The translations under genes were made by a program, and so were the position numbers. From the NCBI GenBank assembly GCA_900100325.1, contig LT629697.1:2911423-2975422 (forward strand): DNA of 64,000 bases. Reading direction: 5' to 3'. The DNA is from Frankineae bacterium MT45 (GTDB lineage: Bacteria > Actinomycetota > Actinomycetes > Mycobacteriales > Jatrophihabitantaceae). Shown here piece after piece: positions 16,312 through 46,908 of this stretch. The notes under the pieces are model-generated. The model saw nothing but the letters and a program-made list of their open reading frames with translations, did no database searches and had not been told where the DNA came from. The number at the start of each line of letters is the position of its first letter. Within the stretch, counting starts at the first letter, position 1.

Positions 16312-16902
16312 CTACACAACGGTCGGAAGCCATGGTTTCCGGGCTGATTCGTACTCGGCGATGGAATCGACCTGCCGAAGCGTCAGTCCGATGTCGTCGA
16401 GGCCCTCCAGCAGACGCCAGCGGGTGTAGTCGTCGAGTGCGAAGTCGTGCACCTCGCCATCCCAGCGAACCTGTCGCTCGAGCAGGTCGATCGTCACCTG
16501 GGTGGTTGGGTCGGCCTCGATGTCGTCGAAGAGACGCTGCACGATCTTCTCGGCGAGCTCAACGGTGAGCAGACCGGCCTTCAGCGAGTTCCCACGGAAG
16601 ATGTCGGCGAATCGTGGGGAGATGACCGCCTTGAAACCGTAGTCAGTGAGGGCCCAGACGGCGTGCTCCCGCGAGGAACCGGTGCCGAAGTCGGGCCCAG
16701 CCACCAGAATCGAGGCGCCCTCGTACTGCGGCTGGTTGAGAACGAAGTCCGGCTCGTTCGTGCGCCAGGCGTTGAAGAGGCCGTCTTCGAAACCGGTCCG
16801 GGTCACTCGCTTGAGGTAGACGGCCGGGATGATCTGATCGGTGTCAACGTTGCTGCGTCGCAGCGGAACGGCCCGACCGGTGTGCACAGTGAACTTTTCC
16901 AT
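16312..16902 (-). CDS. leuD: 3-isopropylmalate dehydratase small subunit
   Basis: A 196-aa swivel-domain subunit that pairs with LeuC to isomerise 2- to 3-isopropylmalate in leucine synthesis. [26 protein letters not shown] is shortened here to its hallmark [10 protein letters not shown] (residues 18-27). [13 protein letters not shown] is the substrate-binding loop, and [17 protein letters not shown] follows. AAGGAG is 7 nt before the ATG. leuC ends 11 nt upstream. Expression is expected to follow the leuC promoter and its palindromic operator. Confidence 0.96.
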
Positions 16903-16913
16903 GACGAATCTCC

Positions 16914-18311
16914 TTACAGGTCGGCCGGGCTGGCCAGGTGGCCGGTGATGGCGGTCGCGGCGGCGACCAGGGGTGAGACGAGGTGCGTCCGCCCGCCCTT
17001 GCCCTGGCGACCCTCGAAGTTGCGGTTTGAGGTCGAGGCACTCCGCTCCCCCGGTGCCAGCTGGTCGGGGTTCATGCCGAGACACATGGAGCATCCGGCC
17101 TCACGCCATTCGGCCCCGAAGTCGGTGAAGACGGCGTCCAGGCCCTCCTGCTCGGCCTGCGCCTTGACCCGCATCGAGCCGGGGACGACGAGCATGCGGA
17201 CTCCGTCGGCGATCCGGCGGCCCCGGATGACGTCGACGACGGCTCGTAGATCCTCGATGCGTCCGTTCGTGCAGGAACCGACGAAGACGGTGTCGACCTT
17301 GATCTGCCGCAGCGGTGTGCCGGCGACCAATCCCATGTAGGTGAGGGCATTGGCCGCGGCGACGCGATCGCTCTCCTCCTCGAAGGTCTCCGGGTCGGGA
17401 ACGGCCGATCCGAGCGGTGCACCCTGGCCCGGGTTGGTTCCCCACGTGACGAAGGGCGACAGTTCGGCCGCATCCAGCACGATCTCCGCGTCGAACTCGG
17501 CATCAGCGTCGGTGCGCAGGCTCGTCCAGTACTCCACGGCGGCGTCCCAGTCCTGCTCCGACGGCGCGTGCGGACGACCCTTCAAGTAGGCGAACGTGGT
17601 CTCATCCGGTGCGATCAGCCCGGCGCGGGCTCCCCACTCGATGCTCATGTTGCAGACCGTCATTCGGGCCTCCATGGACATCGCCTCGAAGGTCGCCCCG
17701 CGGTACTCGACGATGTATCCGGCGCCACCACCGGTGCCGGCCTTCGCGATCACCGCGAGAATCACGTCTTTTGCGGTGACTCCGTGCGGCAGCTCGCCGT
17801 TGACGGTGACGGCCATCGTCTTCGGGCGATCCAGCGGCAGCGTCTGGGTGGCCAGCACGTGCTCGACCTGGCTCGTGCCGATGCCGAAGGCCAGCGCGCC
17901 GAAGGCGCCGTGTGTGGAGGTGTGCGAGTCGCCGCAGACGATCGTCATACCGGGCTGGGTGATTCCGAGCTGCGGGCCGATGACGTGCACGATGCCCTGC
18001 TCGACGTTGCCCATCGGGTAGAGGCGGACGCCGAACTCGGCGCAGTTGCGGCGCAGTGTGTCGACCTGCGTGCGGCTGGTCAGGTCAGCGATCGGCTGAT
18101 CGATGTTCTGGGTCGGGACGTTGTGGTCCTCGGTGGCCAGCGTCAAATCGGGACGGTGCACCGGCCGGCCGGCCAGGCGGAGGCCGTCGAAGGCCTGCGG
18201 GCTGGTGACCTCATGCACCAGGTGCATGTCGATGTAGAGGAGATCCGGCTCACCGGCCGCACTGCGAACCACGTGCGAATCCCACAACTTCTCTGCCAAT
18301 GTCTTACCCAC
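16914..18311 (-). CDS. leuC: 3-isopropylmalate dehydratase large subunit
   Basis: A 465-aa aconitase-family catalytic subunit holding a [4Fe-4S] cluster through Cys residues in VGSCTNGR and in [31 protein letters not shown] is another family signature. With LeuD it catalyses the second step of leucine synthesis. The GTG start has GAAGGG 9 nt upstream. The gene is divergent from an IclR regulator whose promoter contains the palindrome TCTCATTATTTGAGA, 100 bp upstream of this start, the arrangement known for LtbR/NdgR control of leuCD in Corynebacterium and Streptomyces. Confidence 0.97.
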
Positions 18312-18404: not shown

Positions 18405-18434
18405 TTGCAATCTCATTATTTGAGACTCTAGTAT
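18405..18434 (+). promoter_or_regulatory. Promoter of the IclR regulator gene
   Basis: TTGCAA (18405-18410) and TAGTAT (18429-18434) are spaced by 18 nt, and the ATG follows 6 nt after the -10, so the transcript is probably leaderless. The operator-like palindrome fills most of the spacer, which would let a bound repressor exclude RNA polymerase. Confidence 0.6.
18411..18425. promoter_or_regulatory. Putative LtbR/NdgR-type operator at leuC / iclR
   Basis: TCTCATTATTTGAGA is a palindrome with 5-bp arms (TCTCA/TGAGA) and a 5-bp centre. A palindrome with identical arms lies 42 bp upstream of leuB (39753-39767). Its place between the -35 and -10 of the regulator gene suggests autoregulation and, from the other side, control of leuCD. 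Confidence 0.65.
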
Positions 18435-18440
18435 CGTGCT

Positions 18441-19151
18441 ATGAGACAGCATAGCGGCATTGGCGTCATCGACAAAGCGGTCGCCATTCTGGATGCATCG
18501 GCCACCGCCCCACAGTCGCTGGCCGAACTCGTAACCACGACGCAACTGCCCCGGGCCACCGCGCACCGCCTCGCCGTCGCGCTGGAGATCCATGGCCTCC
18601 TCGGACGTGACAACGAAGGGCGATTCGTGCTCGGTTCGCGCGTGGCTGAGCTCGCCGCGGCCCTCCCCGACCCGCTGCTGGCCGCGGCCGCGCCGGTGCT
18701 GGCCTGGGTGCGCGACGAGTGCGGCGAGAGCGCTCAGCTCTACCGCCGCGACGGCCGGGCCCGCATCTGCGTCGCCGCCGCCGAGCGAGCCACCGGGCTG
18801 CGGACGACGGTGCCGGTGGGGTCTCAGCTACCGCTGACGGCCGGATCGGGCGGTCAGGTGCTCTGCGCGTGGCTCGAGGACCCGGCGCTGCTGAAGGAGC
18901 TTCTCAGCCAGGCCGAGTTCACCGAGCGGAATCTCGTCGACGTGCGACGCCGGGGCTGGGCCCAGTCGGTCGCGCAGCGCGAGGCCGGGGTCGCGTCGGT
19001 GTCGGCGCCGGTGCGCGGACCCGATGGCGGGGTCATCGCGGCGCTGTCGATCTCCGGGCCGATTGAGCGCCTCGGGCGCACGCCCGGGCAGCGATTCGCG
19101 CCGATGCTCATCACCGGCGGCCGGCGCATCACCGTCACCCTCGGCGGCTAA
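18441..19151 (+). CDS. ltbR: IclR-family regulator of leucine biosynthesis (LtbR/NdgR-like)
   Basis: A 236-aa IclR-family protein with an N-terminal winged helix-turn-helix (about 8-70; LAELVTTTQLPRATAHRLAV) and a C-terminal effector-binding GAF-like domain. It is divergent from leuCD, the conserved position of LtbR in corynebacteria, NdgR/AreB in streptomycetes and Rv2989 in mycobacteria. In those organisms the protein controls leuCD and leuB. That exactly the leuC/iclR and leuB upstream regions share the palindrome TCTCA-N5-TGAGA here supports the same role. The symbol is by orthology of position; the ligand is unknown from sequence. Confidence 0.85.
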   Translation: MRQHSGIGVIDKAVAILDASATAPQSLAELVTTTQLPRATAHRLAVALEIHGLLGRDNEGRFVLGSRVAELAAALPDPLLAAAAPVLAWVRDECGESAQLYRRDGRARICVAAAERATGLRTTVPVGSQLPLTAGSGGQVLCAWLEDPALLKELLSQAEFTERNLVDVRRRGWAQSVAQREAGVASVSAPVRGPDGGVIAALSISGPIERLGRTPGQRFAPMLITGGRRITVTLGG

Positions 19152-32464: not shown

Positions 32465-32537
32465 TAGCCCCGATGGGATTCGAACCCACGCTACCGCCGT
32501 GAGAGGGCGGCGTCCTGGGCCGCTAGACGACGGGGCC
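32465..32537 (-). tRNA. tRNA-Glu (anticodon CTC)
   Basis: A 73-base tRNA on the minus strand. The acceptor stem is GGCCCCG with CGGGGCT, the discriminator is A, and no CCA is encoded. The D-arm has GTCTAGCGGCC. The anticodon stem CCGCC/GGCGG encloses the loop CTCTCAC, giving CTC. The T-loop is TTCGAAT. It lies 40 nt downstream of tRNA-Gln and shares its terminator; the matching synthetase gltX is 1.6 kb away. Confidence 0.95.
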
Positions 32538-32577: not shown

Positions 32578-32649
32578 CTGGGGTACCAGGACTCGAACCT
32601 AGACTAAATGAATCAGAATCATTTGGGCTGCCAATTACCCCATACCCCA
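32578..32649 (-). tRNA. tRNA-Gln (anticodon CTG)
   Basis: A 72-base tRNA on the minus strand. The acceptor stem is TGGGGTA with TACCCCA and the discriminator is G. The anticodon stem AATGA/TCATT encloses TTCTGAT, giving CTG. The T-loop is TTCGAGT. No CCA is encoded. A TAGAGT box about 40 nt upstream may be its -10. In organisms with GatCAB it is first charged with glutamate by GltX and then amidated; both enzymes are in this window. Confidence 0.95.
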
Positions 32650-36964: not shown

Positions 36965-38572
36965 CTAGCGGGTCTCGTGCAGTAGCCCGTAGCGCACCGC
37001 GTCGTGCAGGGCCAGCCAGGACGCCTCGATCACGTTGCCGTGCACGCCCACCGTCGTCCAGCTGACCGGATTCGCCGCGGTCGCGTTCGGCGTCTGTGAC
37101 GTCTCCACGAGCACTCTGGTTACCGCGTCGGTACCGGCGCGGCCGGCCAGGATTCGCACCTTGTAGTCGCTCAGTTCGAAGTTGCGCAGCTGCGGGTAGA
37201 CGGTCTCCAGCGCCGAGCGGAGCGCCCGGTCGAGCGCGTTCACCGGGCCGTTCCCCTCTTCGGTGGAGATCACCCGGAGGCCGTCGGCGTGCACCTTCAC
37301 CGTCGCCTCGCTGACCAGCGTGCCGTCCTCGCGCCGGTCGATGATGACCCGGTAGGACTCGACTGTGAAGAGCTCGGCCACCGCGTCCTCGCCACCGAGG
37401 GCGTCGCGCAGCAGCAGCTCGAAGGAGGCGTCGGCCGCCTCGTAGGACCAGCCGGCCGCCTCGCGGTCCTTGATCTGGTTCACCACCTCGGAGACCACCT
37501 CCGGCCGGTGCGCGACATCGACGCCGAGCTCGCGGGACTTCAGCTCGATAGAGGCCCGGCCGGCCATCTCGGTGACCAGAATGCGCTGTGAATTGCCGAC
37601 AACCGCGGGATCCAGGTGGTTGTAGAGCTCCGGCTTCACCTTGATCGCCGATGCGTGCAGGCCGGCCTTGTGGGCGAACGAGGAGGTCCCGACGTAGGCC
37701 TGATGGGTATCCGGCGCCAGGTTCGCGATCTCGGCGATGGCGTGCGAGACCCGGCTCATCTCGGCCAGCGCGCCGTCCGGGAGCACGTCGAGCCCCATCT
37801 TGGTGACGAGGCCGCCGATCACCGCGAAGAGGTCGGCATTTCCGGCTCGTTCGCCGTAGCCATTGGCCGTCCCCTGTACGTGCGTCGCCCCGGCGTCGAC
37901 GGCGGCGAAGGTGTTGGCCACCGCGCAGCCGGTGTCGTTCTGAGTGTGGATCCCCAGCCGCAGCGAGGTGCGGGCAGCGACGTCGGCCACGATGTCACGC
38001 ACACCTGCCGGCAGCATCCCGCCGTTGGTGTCGCAGAGGACGCCGACCGAGGCACCGGCGGCCGCGGCCGCCTCCAGCACCGCGACGCCGTAGCCGGAGT
38101 CACGCTTGTAGCCGTCGAAGAAGTGCTCGCAGTCGATGAAGACCCGGCGTTCATGAGCCCGCAGGAAGGCGACCGTGTCGTGCACCATCGCCAGGTTCTC
38201 CTCCGGCGTCGTCCGCAGCGCCAACTCCACGTGCGCGACGTCGGACTTGGCGACGAGCGTGATCACCTGGGCCCGCGAATCGAGCAGGGCCTGCACCTGC
38301 GCGTCGTCCTCGACCGCAACCCCGGCCCGGCGGGTGGCACCGAAGGCGCTGAGCACCGCGTTCTTGAGGATCAGCTCGCCGTCGGCGGCCCGGGCGAAGA
38401 ATTCACTGTCCTTGGGCATCGCGCCCGGCCAGCCGCCCTCGATGAAGCCGACCCCGACCTGGTCCAGCAGGCGCGCCACCGCGAGCTTGTCGGCCACCGA
38501 GTAGCTGATGCCCTCGCGCTGCGCACCGTCTCGCAGCGTCGTGTCGAAGACGTGGAAGGCGTCGGTCTGCAT
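36965..38572 (-). CDS. cimA: (R)-citramalate synthase
   Basis: A 535-aa member of the isopropylmalate/citramalate synthase family, closest in start sequence (FDTTLRDGAQREGIS, about 8-22) to CimA, which condenses pyruvate with acetyl-CoA as the first step of threonine-independent isoleucine synthesis. The TIM barrel has the metal-binding LGIHTQNDTG, and the C-terminal ~130 residues form the LeuA-type allosteric domain. 2-Isopropylmalate synthase is the alternative, but LeuA proteins differ in this opening. The other branched-chain genes around it support the call. A canonical LeuA gene is not in the window. Confidence 0.88.
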   Translation of the reverse strand: MQTDAFHVFDTTLRDGAQREGISYSVADKLAVARLLDQVGVGFIEGGWPGAMPKDSEFFARAADGELILKNAVLSAFGATRRAGVAVEDDAQVQALLDSRAQVITLVAKSDVAHVELALRTTPEENLAMVHDTVAFLRAHERRVFIDCEHFFDGYKRDSGYGVAVLEAAAAAGASVGVLCDTNGGMLPAGVRDIVADVAARTSLRLGIHTQNDTGCAVANTFAAVDAGATHVQGTANGYGERAGNADLFAVIGGLVTKMGLDVLPDGALAEMSRVSHAIAEIANLAPDTHQAYVGTSSFAHKAGLHASAIKVKPELYNHLDPAVVGNSQRILVTEMAGRASIELKSRELGVDVAHRPEVVSEVVNQIKDREAAGWSYEAADASFELLLRDALGGEDAVAELFTVESYRVIIDRREDGTLVSEATVKVHADGLRVISTEEGNGPVNALDRALRSALETVYPQLRNFELSDYKVRILAGRAGTDAVTRVLVETSQTPNATAANPVSWTTVGVHGNVIEASWLALHDAVRYGLLHETR

Positions 38573-38688: not shown

Positions 38689-39711
38689 TCAGGCGCGGAC
38701 CGCCGCCGCGAGACGAGCGCCGATCTCGCTAGTCGCGCCGGGGTTGGCCGGGTCGCGGCTGATGAGGTCGGCGGCCACCGCGGCCTCGACCCGGGCCGCG
38801 GCCTCGTTCTCGCCGAGGTGCTCGAGCAGCATCGCGACGGAGAGGATCGCGGCGGTCGGGTCGGCCTTGTCCTGCCCGGCGATGTCCGGGGCCGAGCCGT
38901 GCACCGGCTCGAACATGGACGGGTTCGTCCCGGACGGGTCGACGTTCCCCGAGGCGGCGAGGCCGATGCCACCAGCCACGGCCGCGGCGAGGTCGGTGAT
39001 GATGTCGCCGAAGAGGTTGTCCGTGACGATCACGTCGTAACGTCCGGGGTCGGTGACTAGGTAGATGGTGGCCGCATCGACGTGGTTGTAGGCCACCGTC
39101 ACGTCCGGGAACTCTTTGCCGACTGCGGCGACGGTGCGGAACCAGAGATCACCCGCAAATACCAGCACGTTGTTCTTGTGCACCAGGGTGAGGTGCTTGC
39201 GCGGGCGCGAGGCGGCCCGGGCGAAGGCGGCACGGACCACGCGCTCGACGCCGAAGGCGGTGTTGACGCTCACCTCGGTCGCGACCTCGTGCGGCGTGCC
39301 GACCCGCAGCGCCCCACCGTTGCCGGTGTACGGCCCCTCGGTGCCCTCGCGGTACACGACGAAGTCAATCGCCGGCTCCCCGGCCAGCGGCGTGCTGACG
39401 CCCTTGTAAAGCTTGGCCGGGCGCAGGTTGACGTAGTGGTCGAGCGCGAAGCGCAGCTTGAGCAGCAGACCACGCTCCAGCACACCGGACGGGACTGTCG
39501 GGTCACCCACCGCGCCGAGCAGGATCGCGTCGTGCTTGCGCAGCTCCTCCAGCACCGAATCCGGGAGCGTCTCGCCGGTACGGTGCCAGCGCGCCGCGCC
39601 GAGGTCGTACTCGGTCTTCTCTACTCCGGGGAGTACTGCCTCCAGGACGCGAAGCGCCTGAGCCGTGACCTCGATGCCGATACCGTCGCCGGGAATGACC
39701 GCAAGTTTCAT
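38689..39711 (-). CDS. leuB: 3-isopropylmalate dehydrogenase
   Basis: A 340-aa NAD-dependent beta-decarboxylating dehydrogenase, third step of leucine synthesis. It starts [12 protein letters not shown], carries the substrate-binding [16 protein letters not shown], and has the metal-binding Asp in [15 protein letters not shown]. The Met at 39711 was chosen by family; an upstream Met at 39753 would read through the operator. A palindrome TCTCATTTACTGAGA lies 42 bp upstream and has the same arms as the one at leuC, indicating common control by the IclR regulator. Confidence 0.96.
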
Positions 39712-39752
39712 GCCCACAGCGTAGCGAATCGTCCTGCCATTCGGACTTGCCA

Positions 39753-39767
39753 TCTCATTTACTGAGA
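39753..39767. promoter_or_regulatory. Putative LtbR/NdgR-type operator upstream of leuB
   Basis: TCTCATTTACTGAGA has the same palindrome arms (TCTCA/TGAGA, 5-bp spacer) as the site between leuC and iclR, 20 kb away. It starts 42 bp before the leuB ATG. I saw no third copy near the ilv genes by eye. Confidence 0.65.
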
Positions 39768-46869: not shown

Positions 46870-46908
46870 CTACCGAACGCGCTGTGGGAGTACTACAAGC
46901 TTGAACAC
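46870..46908 (-). CDS. ilvL: ilvB leader peptide (VFKLVVLPQRVR)
   Basis: A 12-residue reading frame in front of the attenuator encodes fMet/V-F-K-L-V-V-L-P-Q-R-V-R and then stops. Five of its residues are Leu or Val, with four in a row. This is the form of actinobacterial ilvB leader peptides such as that of C. glutamicum. It starts with GTG 7 nt after TAACCT, thus probably leaderless. Ribosome stalling at the Leu-Val-Val-Leu codons when charged tRNAs are scarce would affect the hairpin that begins with its final codons. The symbol is descriptive. Confidence 0.8.
   Translation of the reverse strand: MFKLVVLPQRVR

Follow-up and report, generated by a model that had tools for sequence, protein, structure and literature searches.

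Do the two copies of one short palindrome at leucine genes in the window (the whole 64-kb stretch of DNA that was analysed) act as operators of a dedicated leucine regulon and, if so, which regulator binds them and which genes belong to it? A pattern scan of the window found exactly two exact copies of TCTCA-N5-TGAGA, at 18411-18425 between leuC and iclR and at 39753-39767 before leuB, as the initial annotation had read them. ilvC, ilvB, leuC, leuD, leuB, the citramalate synthase gene and the IclR-type regulator gene were identified by NCBIfam and Pfam.

A tandem element rather than a bare palindrome

Given the base composition (67.9% GC), chance would supply the 15-mer about 0.015 times per window and about once per genome. 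The whole genome (4,228,602 bases, one contig) holds 5 exact copies, against 2 for the reversed pattern: those at leuC/iclR and leuB, one intergenic copy before a gene for an MFS transporter, and two inside long open frames, one DnaJ-like and one response-regulator-like. Because two of the five lie inside genes, the bare 15-mer is too weak on its own to define a regulon; its exact copies include chance ones. Among further genomic sites of the form TCYCA-N5-TGRGA, L036 and L037 were discarded since they lie in open frames, and L038 since, by eye, it has no YGRGA at +21.

The element had been described as 15 bp long. It is in fact larger, a tandem of two palindromes, O1 and O2, whose centres lie exactly 21 bp apart at iclR, leuB and the MFS gene; the 15-mer is one half of it. 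We searched for this tandem as the three-box pattern TCYCR-N5-YGRGA-N16-YGRGA. The own genome has just two perfect matches, one at iclR/leuC and one before the MFS gene; a tolerance of one mismatch gives 39 rows over both strands, including leuB, whose site has one mismatch, and 11 for the reversed control. Fifty O1-like sites (up to one mismatch) precede leuB, MFS and methyltransferase genes, where no coding constraint acts on the third box, and 21 of these 50 have YGRGA at exactly +21, while other offsets average 0.22.

A stricter three-box scan of 61 genomes returned 36 sites, spread over 29 of them; the reversed pattern gave no site. Assigned from their position and the neighbouring frames, the targets were iclR (26), leuB (3), the MFS gene (4), a SAM methyltransferase gene (2) and a sulfate-binding-protein-like gene (1); since the strict pattern was designed after iclR, leuB and MFS had been seen, only the last two are fresh kinds of target. 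On these comparisons of sequence, the tandem form is a cleaner mark of a genuine conserved operator than the bare 15-mer. A genome scan had been proposed as the way to tell a regulon from random placement; its outcome was equivocal for the bare 15-mer (two leucine copies, two in genes, one at MFS) and favoured a regulon for the tandem form.

The sites at iclR/leuC and leuB

At the first locus, leuC (16914..18311, minus strand; 3-isopropylmalate dehydratase large subunit, NCBIfam TIGR00170 above cut-off) starts at 18311 and is followed by leuD, within the open frame 16312-17094 (NF002458 above cut-off). Divergent from leuC, iclR (18441..19151, plus strand) encodes a regulator, probably of NdgR/LtbR type, with the Pfam domains HTH_IclR (PF09339) and IclR_C (PF01614), above gathering score. 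Between the two genes stands O1, the exact match TCTCATTATTTGAGA (18411..18425, plus strand), in a place kept in relatives. O2, TATCGTGCTATGAGA (18432..18446, plus strand), has its centre 21 bp from that of O1 and one mismatch to TCYCR-N5-YGRGA, and its right half overlaps the start region of iclR (ATGAGA). The hexamer TAGTAT (18429..18434, plus strand), 6 bp before the ATG and kept in most relatives, is by its position the likely -10 of iclR, in which case the mRNA would be leaderless.

The regulator has a single match in its own genome at E <= 1e-20 and a homologue at that threshold in 60 of 61 genomes, G023 being without a match. Upstream of these genes, TCYCR-N5-YGRGA was found with at most one mismatch at 58 of 59 loci and with two mismatches at the remaining one, in a count that leaves out the partial locus of G013 and takes O2 as the palindrome of G053. 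A partner palindrome in the +21 register accompanies it at 56 of the 59 relatives' loci; G039 has no such partner, and G027 was not readable further downstream. At most loci TAGTAT comes next after the palindrome, and the start codon stands about six bases further on. After the ATG or GTG come GGA in 40, AGA in 7 and GAA in 7 of the 55 loci scanned (1 unread), with a scan pattern that accepts only codons of the form RRM at this second position. In 16 frames of the window, AGA makes up 6 of 540 arginine codons and GGA 74 of 690 glycine codons, so that demands on the DNA, and not on the protein, may dictate the second codon of iclR.

A similar iclR layout was seen in Mycobacterium, Nocardia, Pseudonocardia, Kitasatospora, Nonomuraea and Cellulomonas (40 of 80 named loci read). 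Proteins with the same operator, for example from Kitasatospora and Mycobacterium, share about 60% identity, measured to the first sequence of the query alignment, and the solved structures nearest in sequence are other IclR proteins, 2o0y being the best. Among the same 40 of 80 named loci, the third box goes with the recognition helix: PRAT-type helices (all those that are not ARPTAHR) have TGRGA in 21 of 22 cases and ARPTAHR helices have TGGAC in 14 of 18. This association may reflect covariation or ancestry, since common descent and the coding of the N-terminus are both confounders.

At the second locus, leuB (38689..39711, minus strand; 3-isopropylmalate dehydrogenase, NF002898 above cut-off, start chosen by homology) has its ATG at 39711, and the palindrome ends 41 bp upstream. 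O1 is again exact, TCTCAGTAAATGAGA on the minus strand (39753..39767). O2, GTCCGAATGGCAGGA (39732..39746, minus strand), centred 21 bp from O1, is degenerate (CAGGA), with one mismatch in the third box; before leuB in the relatives G004, G006, G010, G011 and others this box is perfect. TACGCT (39718..39723, minus strand), 6 bp before the ATG, would be the -10, and a TAGGCT-like hexamer takes a like position before the relatives' leuB.

The leuB operator follows gene layout in the window's family: it is present at 7 of 8 loci where leuB stands apart from ilvC and at 1 of 12 where leuB lies directly behind ilvC. Fisher's test gives p = 7.7e-4, a value that is too strong because the relatives are not independent. 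On this contrast, leuB seems to carry the operator where it is transcribed from a promoter of its own. In a wider set of 41 leuB loci, made up of G011 and of those loci, among 56, where leuB does not directly follow ilvC, 22 have an O1 with at most one mismatch. In the window, leuB stands away from ilvC, and the gene for citramalate synthase (36965..38572, minus strand; TIGR00977 above cut-off) comes after it; the two are possibly co-transcribed, given the same strand and the 116-bp gap. Since that gene lies directly downstream on the same strand, the isoleucine branch via citramalate may share the control exerted at the leuB operator.

Probable members and non-members of the regulon

The initial annotation placed the element at leuC/iclR and leuB only; a perfect copy also stands before the MFS transporter gene (C1:4209646-4210842 of the own genome; L005, L071), 1.26 Mb away and about 20 kb from leuA. 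Its three-box site, a perfect one, lies at 4210862-4210897, between the MFS gene and an isochorismatase-like gene. With the own protein as query, all 12 MFS homologues in 25 genomes have a three-box site at two mismatches or fewer, 9 of them a perfect one; the background for such a site in a stretch of this kind is about 0.02, by hand calculation from window counts. The more distant MFS protein of the relative G029, where the gene lies tail to tail with leuB, found the site at 19 of the 27 genes read, out of 29 matches of which the two omitted start inside the protein; one gene misread within this count, that of G009, has a perfect site in the own-protein set. In M. tuberculosis an MFS gene adjoins leuB. 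The MFS gene of the own genome is likely a member of the regulon beyond leuC/iclR and leuB, conserved in relatives. NCBIfam scores, far below the cut-offs, put its protein loosely with carboxylate transporters and their relatives.

The same tandem operator precedes a SAM methyltransferase gene (protein start YTHGHAE) in several families of the order (L249 1501-2351, L275 685-1536, L305-L317). Twelve of 13 such genes were read; 6 of the 12 have the site at one mismatch or fewer and 8 at two or fewer, although two of the site-bearing genes had come to light through the pattern search. No match to the methyltransferase at E <= 1e-50 turned up in the own genome. In one relative, a perfect three-box site (L304 1460-1495) stands before the sulfate-binding-protein-like gene, a target that fits the presence of cys genes among those of NdgR in S. 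coelicolor. In listings from literature searches, neither an MFS transporter nor a methyltransferase was noticed among the named targets of this regulator. One could speculate that, in addition to leuCD and leuB, the regulator controls an overflow branch of leucine synthesis, in which the MFS protein would be dedicated to exporting an acid of the pathway (isopropylmalate or ketoisocaproate) and, in further families of the order, a SAM methyltransferase would act on such an acid, both under the same tandem operator; we consider this rather doubtful.

Two other genes of the pathway have no such site. The 269 bp upstream of ilvB contain none (best palindrome 2 mismatches, best three-box match 5); a leader peptide, VFKLVVLPQRVR (46870..46908, minus strand), was read and translated there, and downstream of it we noted by eye a terminator-like GC-rich repeat with a T-run. 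For leuA, 1.24 Mb away, which the initial annotation had named as the gene to check first, the motif was absent (best three-box match 5 mismatches) and a leader frame, MRALLLLASRGEA, with four Leu codons was found (L039 1210-1251). A search of Rfam matched no leader family before leuA; its only hits within the window are two tRNA genes (minus strand, 32465-32537 and 32578-32649). Because both genes have leaders and no site, leuA and ilvB would be under attenuation by leader peptides, separate from the IclR regulon. The earlier view of a leucine regulon distinct from the control of ilvB is supported. The small regulon that it proposed stands in outline, probably as that of the adjoining IclR protein, but lacked at least one likely member.

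Proposed mechanism and relation to known regulators

In the model that we propose, the palindrome serves as O1, the stronger site in a tandem operator to which the IclR-type regulator encoded at 18441-19151 binds; we give this model as a whole a probability of about 0.86. The positions, spacing, conservation and genome-wide specificity of the sites are observed; we infer the identity of the binding protein, its arrangement as a dimer of dimers, the sign of control and the effector. Two regulator dimers would bind side by side, one at O1 and one at O2, the weaker site, which from centre to centre is shifted by 21 bp, or two helical turns, towards the gene under control. The -10 of iclR comes directly after O1, and its end falls within O2 together with the start codon, so that binding would be expected to switch iclR off (autorepression). 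At leuB and the MFS gene, O2 covers the -35 region of apparently leaderless promoters, and these genes are therefore most likely repressed when leucine or a signal of the pathway is plentiful. leuA and ilvB would be left to attenuation.

The sign of control is the part on which another reading deserves attention. With the same operator and protein, the regulator might activate leuB and MFS and repress only itself. LtbR is named a repressor in the title of its report, and the own O2 would lie at about -35 to -21 (leuB) and -34 to -20 (MFS) if the transcripts are leaderless, where it would block the polymerase; at leuB of several relatives, however, O2 sits about one turn further upstream than here, in an activator-like place, and the S. 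coelicolor ndgR mutant is described as hardly growing on minimal medium (PMC4340878), a phenotype that favours activation in that species. We regard activation as possible and still unlikely.

That the palindrome is bound by a regulator other than the adjoining IclR protein seems very improbable. Several families use short palindromes, and binding by the IclR protein is here a prediction; yet the site is fixed beside iclR homologues in nearly all relatives read, the geometry of 15 bp and 21 bp is as reported for IclR proteins, and known targets of NdgR are among the genes that it marks. A chance origin, for a pattern of 10 bases in a genome of 4.2 Mb, would fit the roughly one exact copy expected and the two found inside genes; both copies in the window, by contrast, stand at promoters of leucine genes, persist in relatives and have the +21 partner box, which makes this explanation practically negligible.

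A single sighting of a motif has become a proposed regulon with an explicit, testable operator, one palindrome of which runs into the start codon of the regulator's own gene. At the loci read, the tandem operator is kept across many genera of actinobacteria. The conserved MFS transporter and, in some families, the methyltransferase are likely parts of leucine metabolism, which offers a handle on their function.

The closest described counterpart is NdgR of S. coelicolor, for which ChIP-seq is reported to give 19 loci, including ndgR-leuC, leuB, ilvB, ilvD, metF and cys genes. The motif there is GTCCA-N5-TGGAC, an imperfect palindrome of 15 bp; NdgR and its orthologues are said there to adjoin leuCD (PMC4340878). 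The present system shares with NdgR an IclR-type gene divergent from leuC, targets in the leucine pathway and a 15-bp palindrome with a 5-bp centre at both ndgR-leuC and leuB. It differs in the outer bases of the half-sites (TCTCA-N5-TGAGA here), and O1 at leuC/iclR agrees with the published consensus KTYCRSMWYSYGRRM at 11 of 15 positions by hand count. Also unlike S. coelicolor, ilvB here is without a site, an MFS gene has one and a tandem partner stands at 21 bp; we take the targeting of ilvB to be a trait of S. coelicolor and not one that defines the family. The predicted attenuation at leuA and ilvB would control the pathway alongside the IclR regulon of this genome, by an RNA mechanism and with no palindrome.

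LtbR of C. glutamicum is likewise an IclR-type leucine regulator; going by the title of Brune et al. 2007, it is reportedly a repressor of tryptophan genes as well as of leucine genes. For IclR-family sites in general, a tandem arrangement at 18-22 nt is described as frequent and three-box sites as also occurring, PcaU being among the examples, and NdgR/LtbR appears in Table 1 of the same source with a single 15-bp motif (PMC8222616). The operator described here, a palindrome with a further half-site at a spacing of 21 bp, within that range, is like these tandem and three-box operators. It looks like a real, conserved operator whose regulated set is slightly larger than first thought, and its regulator looks like an orthologue of NdgR/LtbR, so that the kind of system would be one already known.
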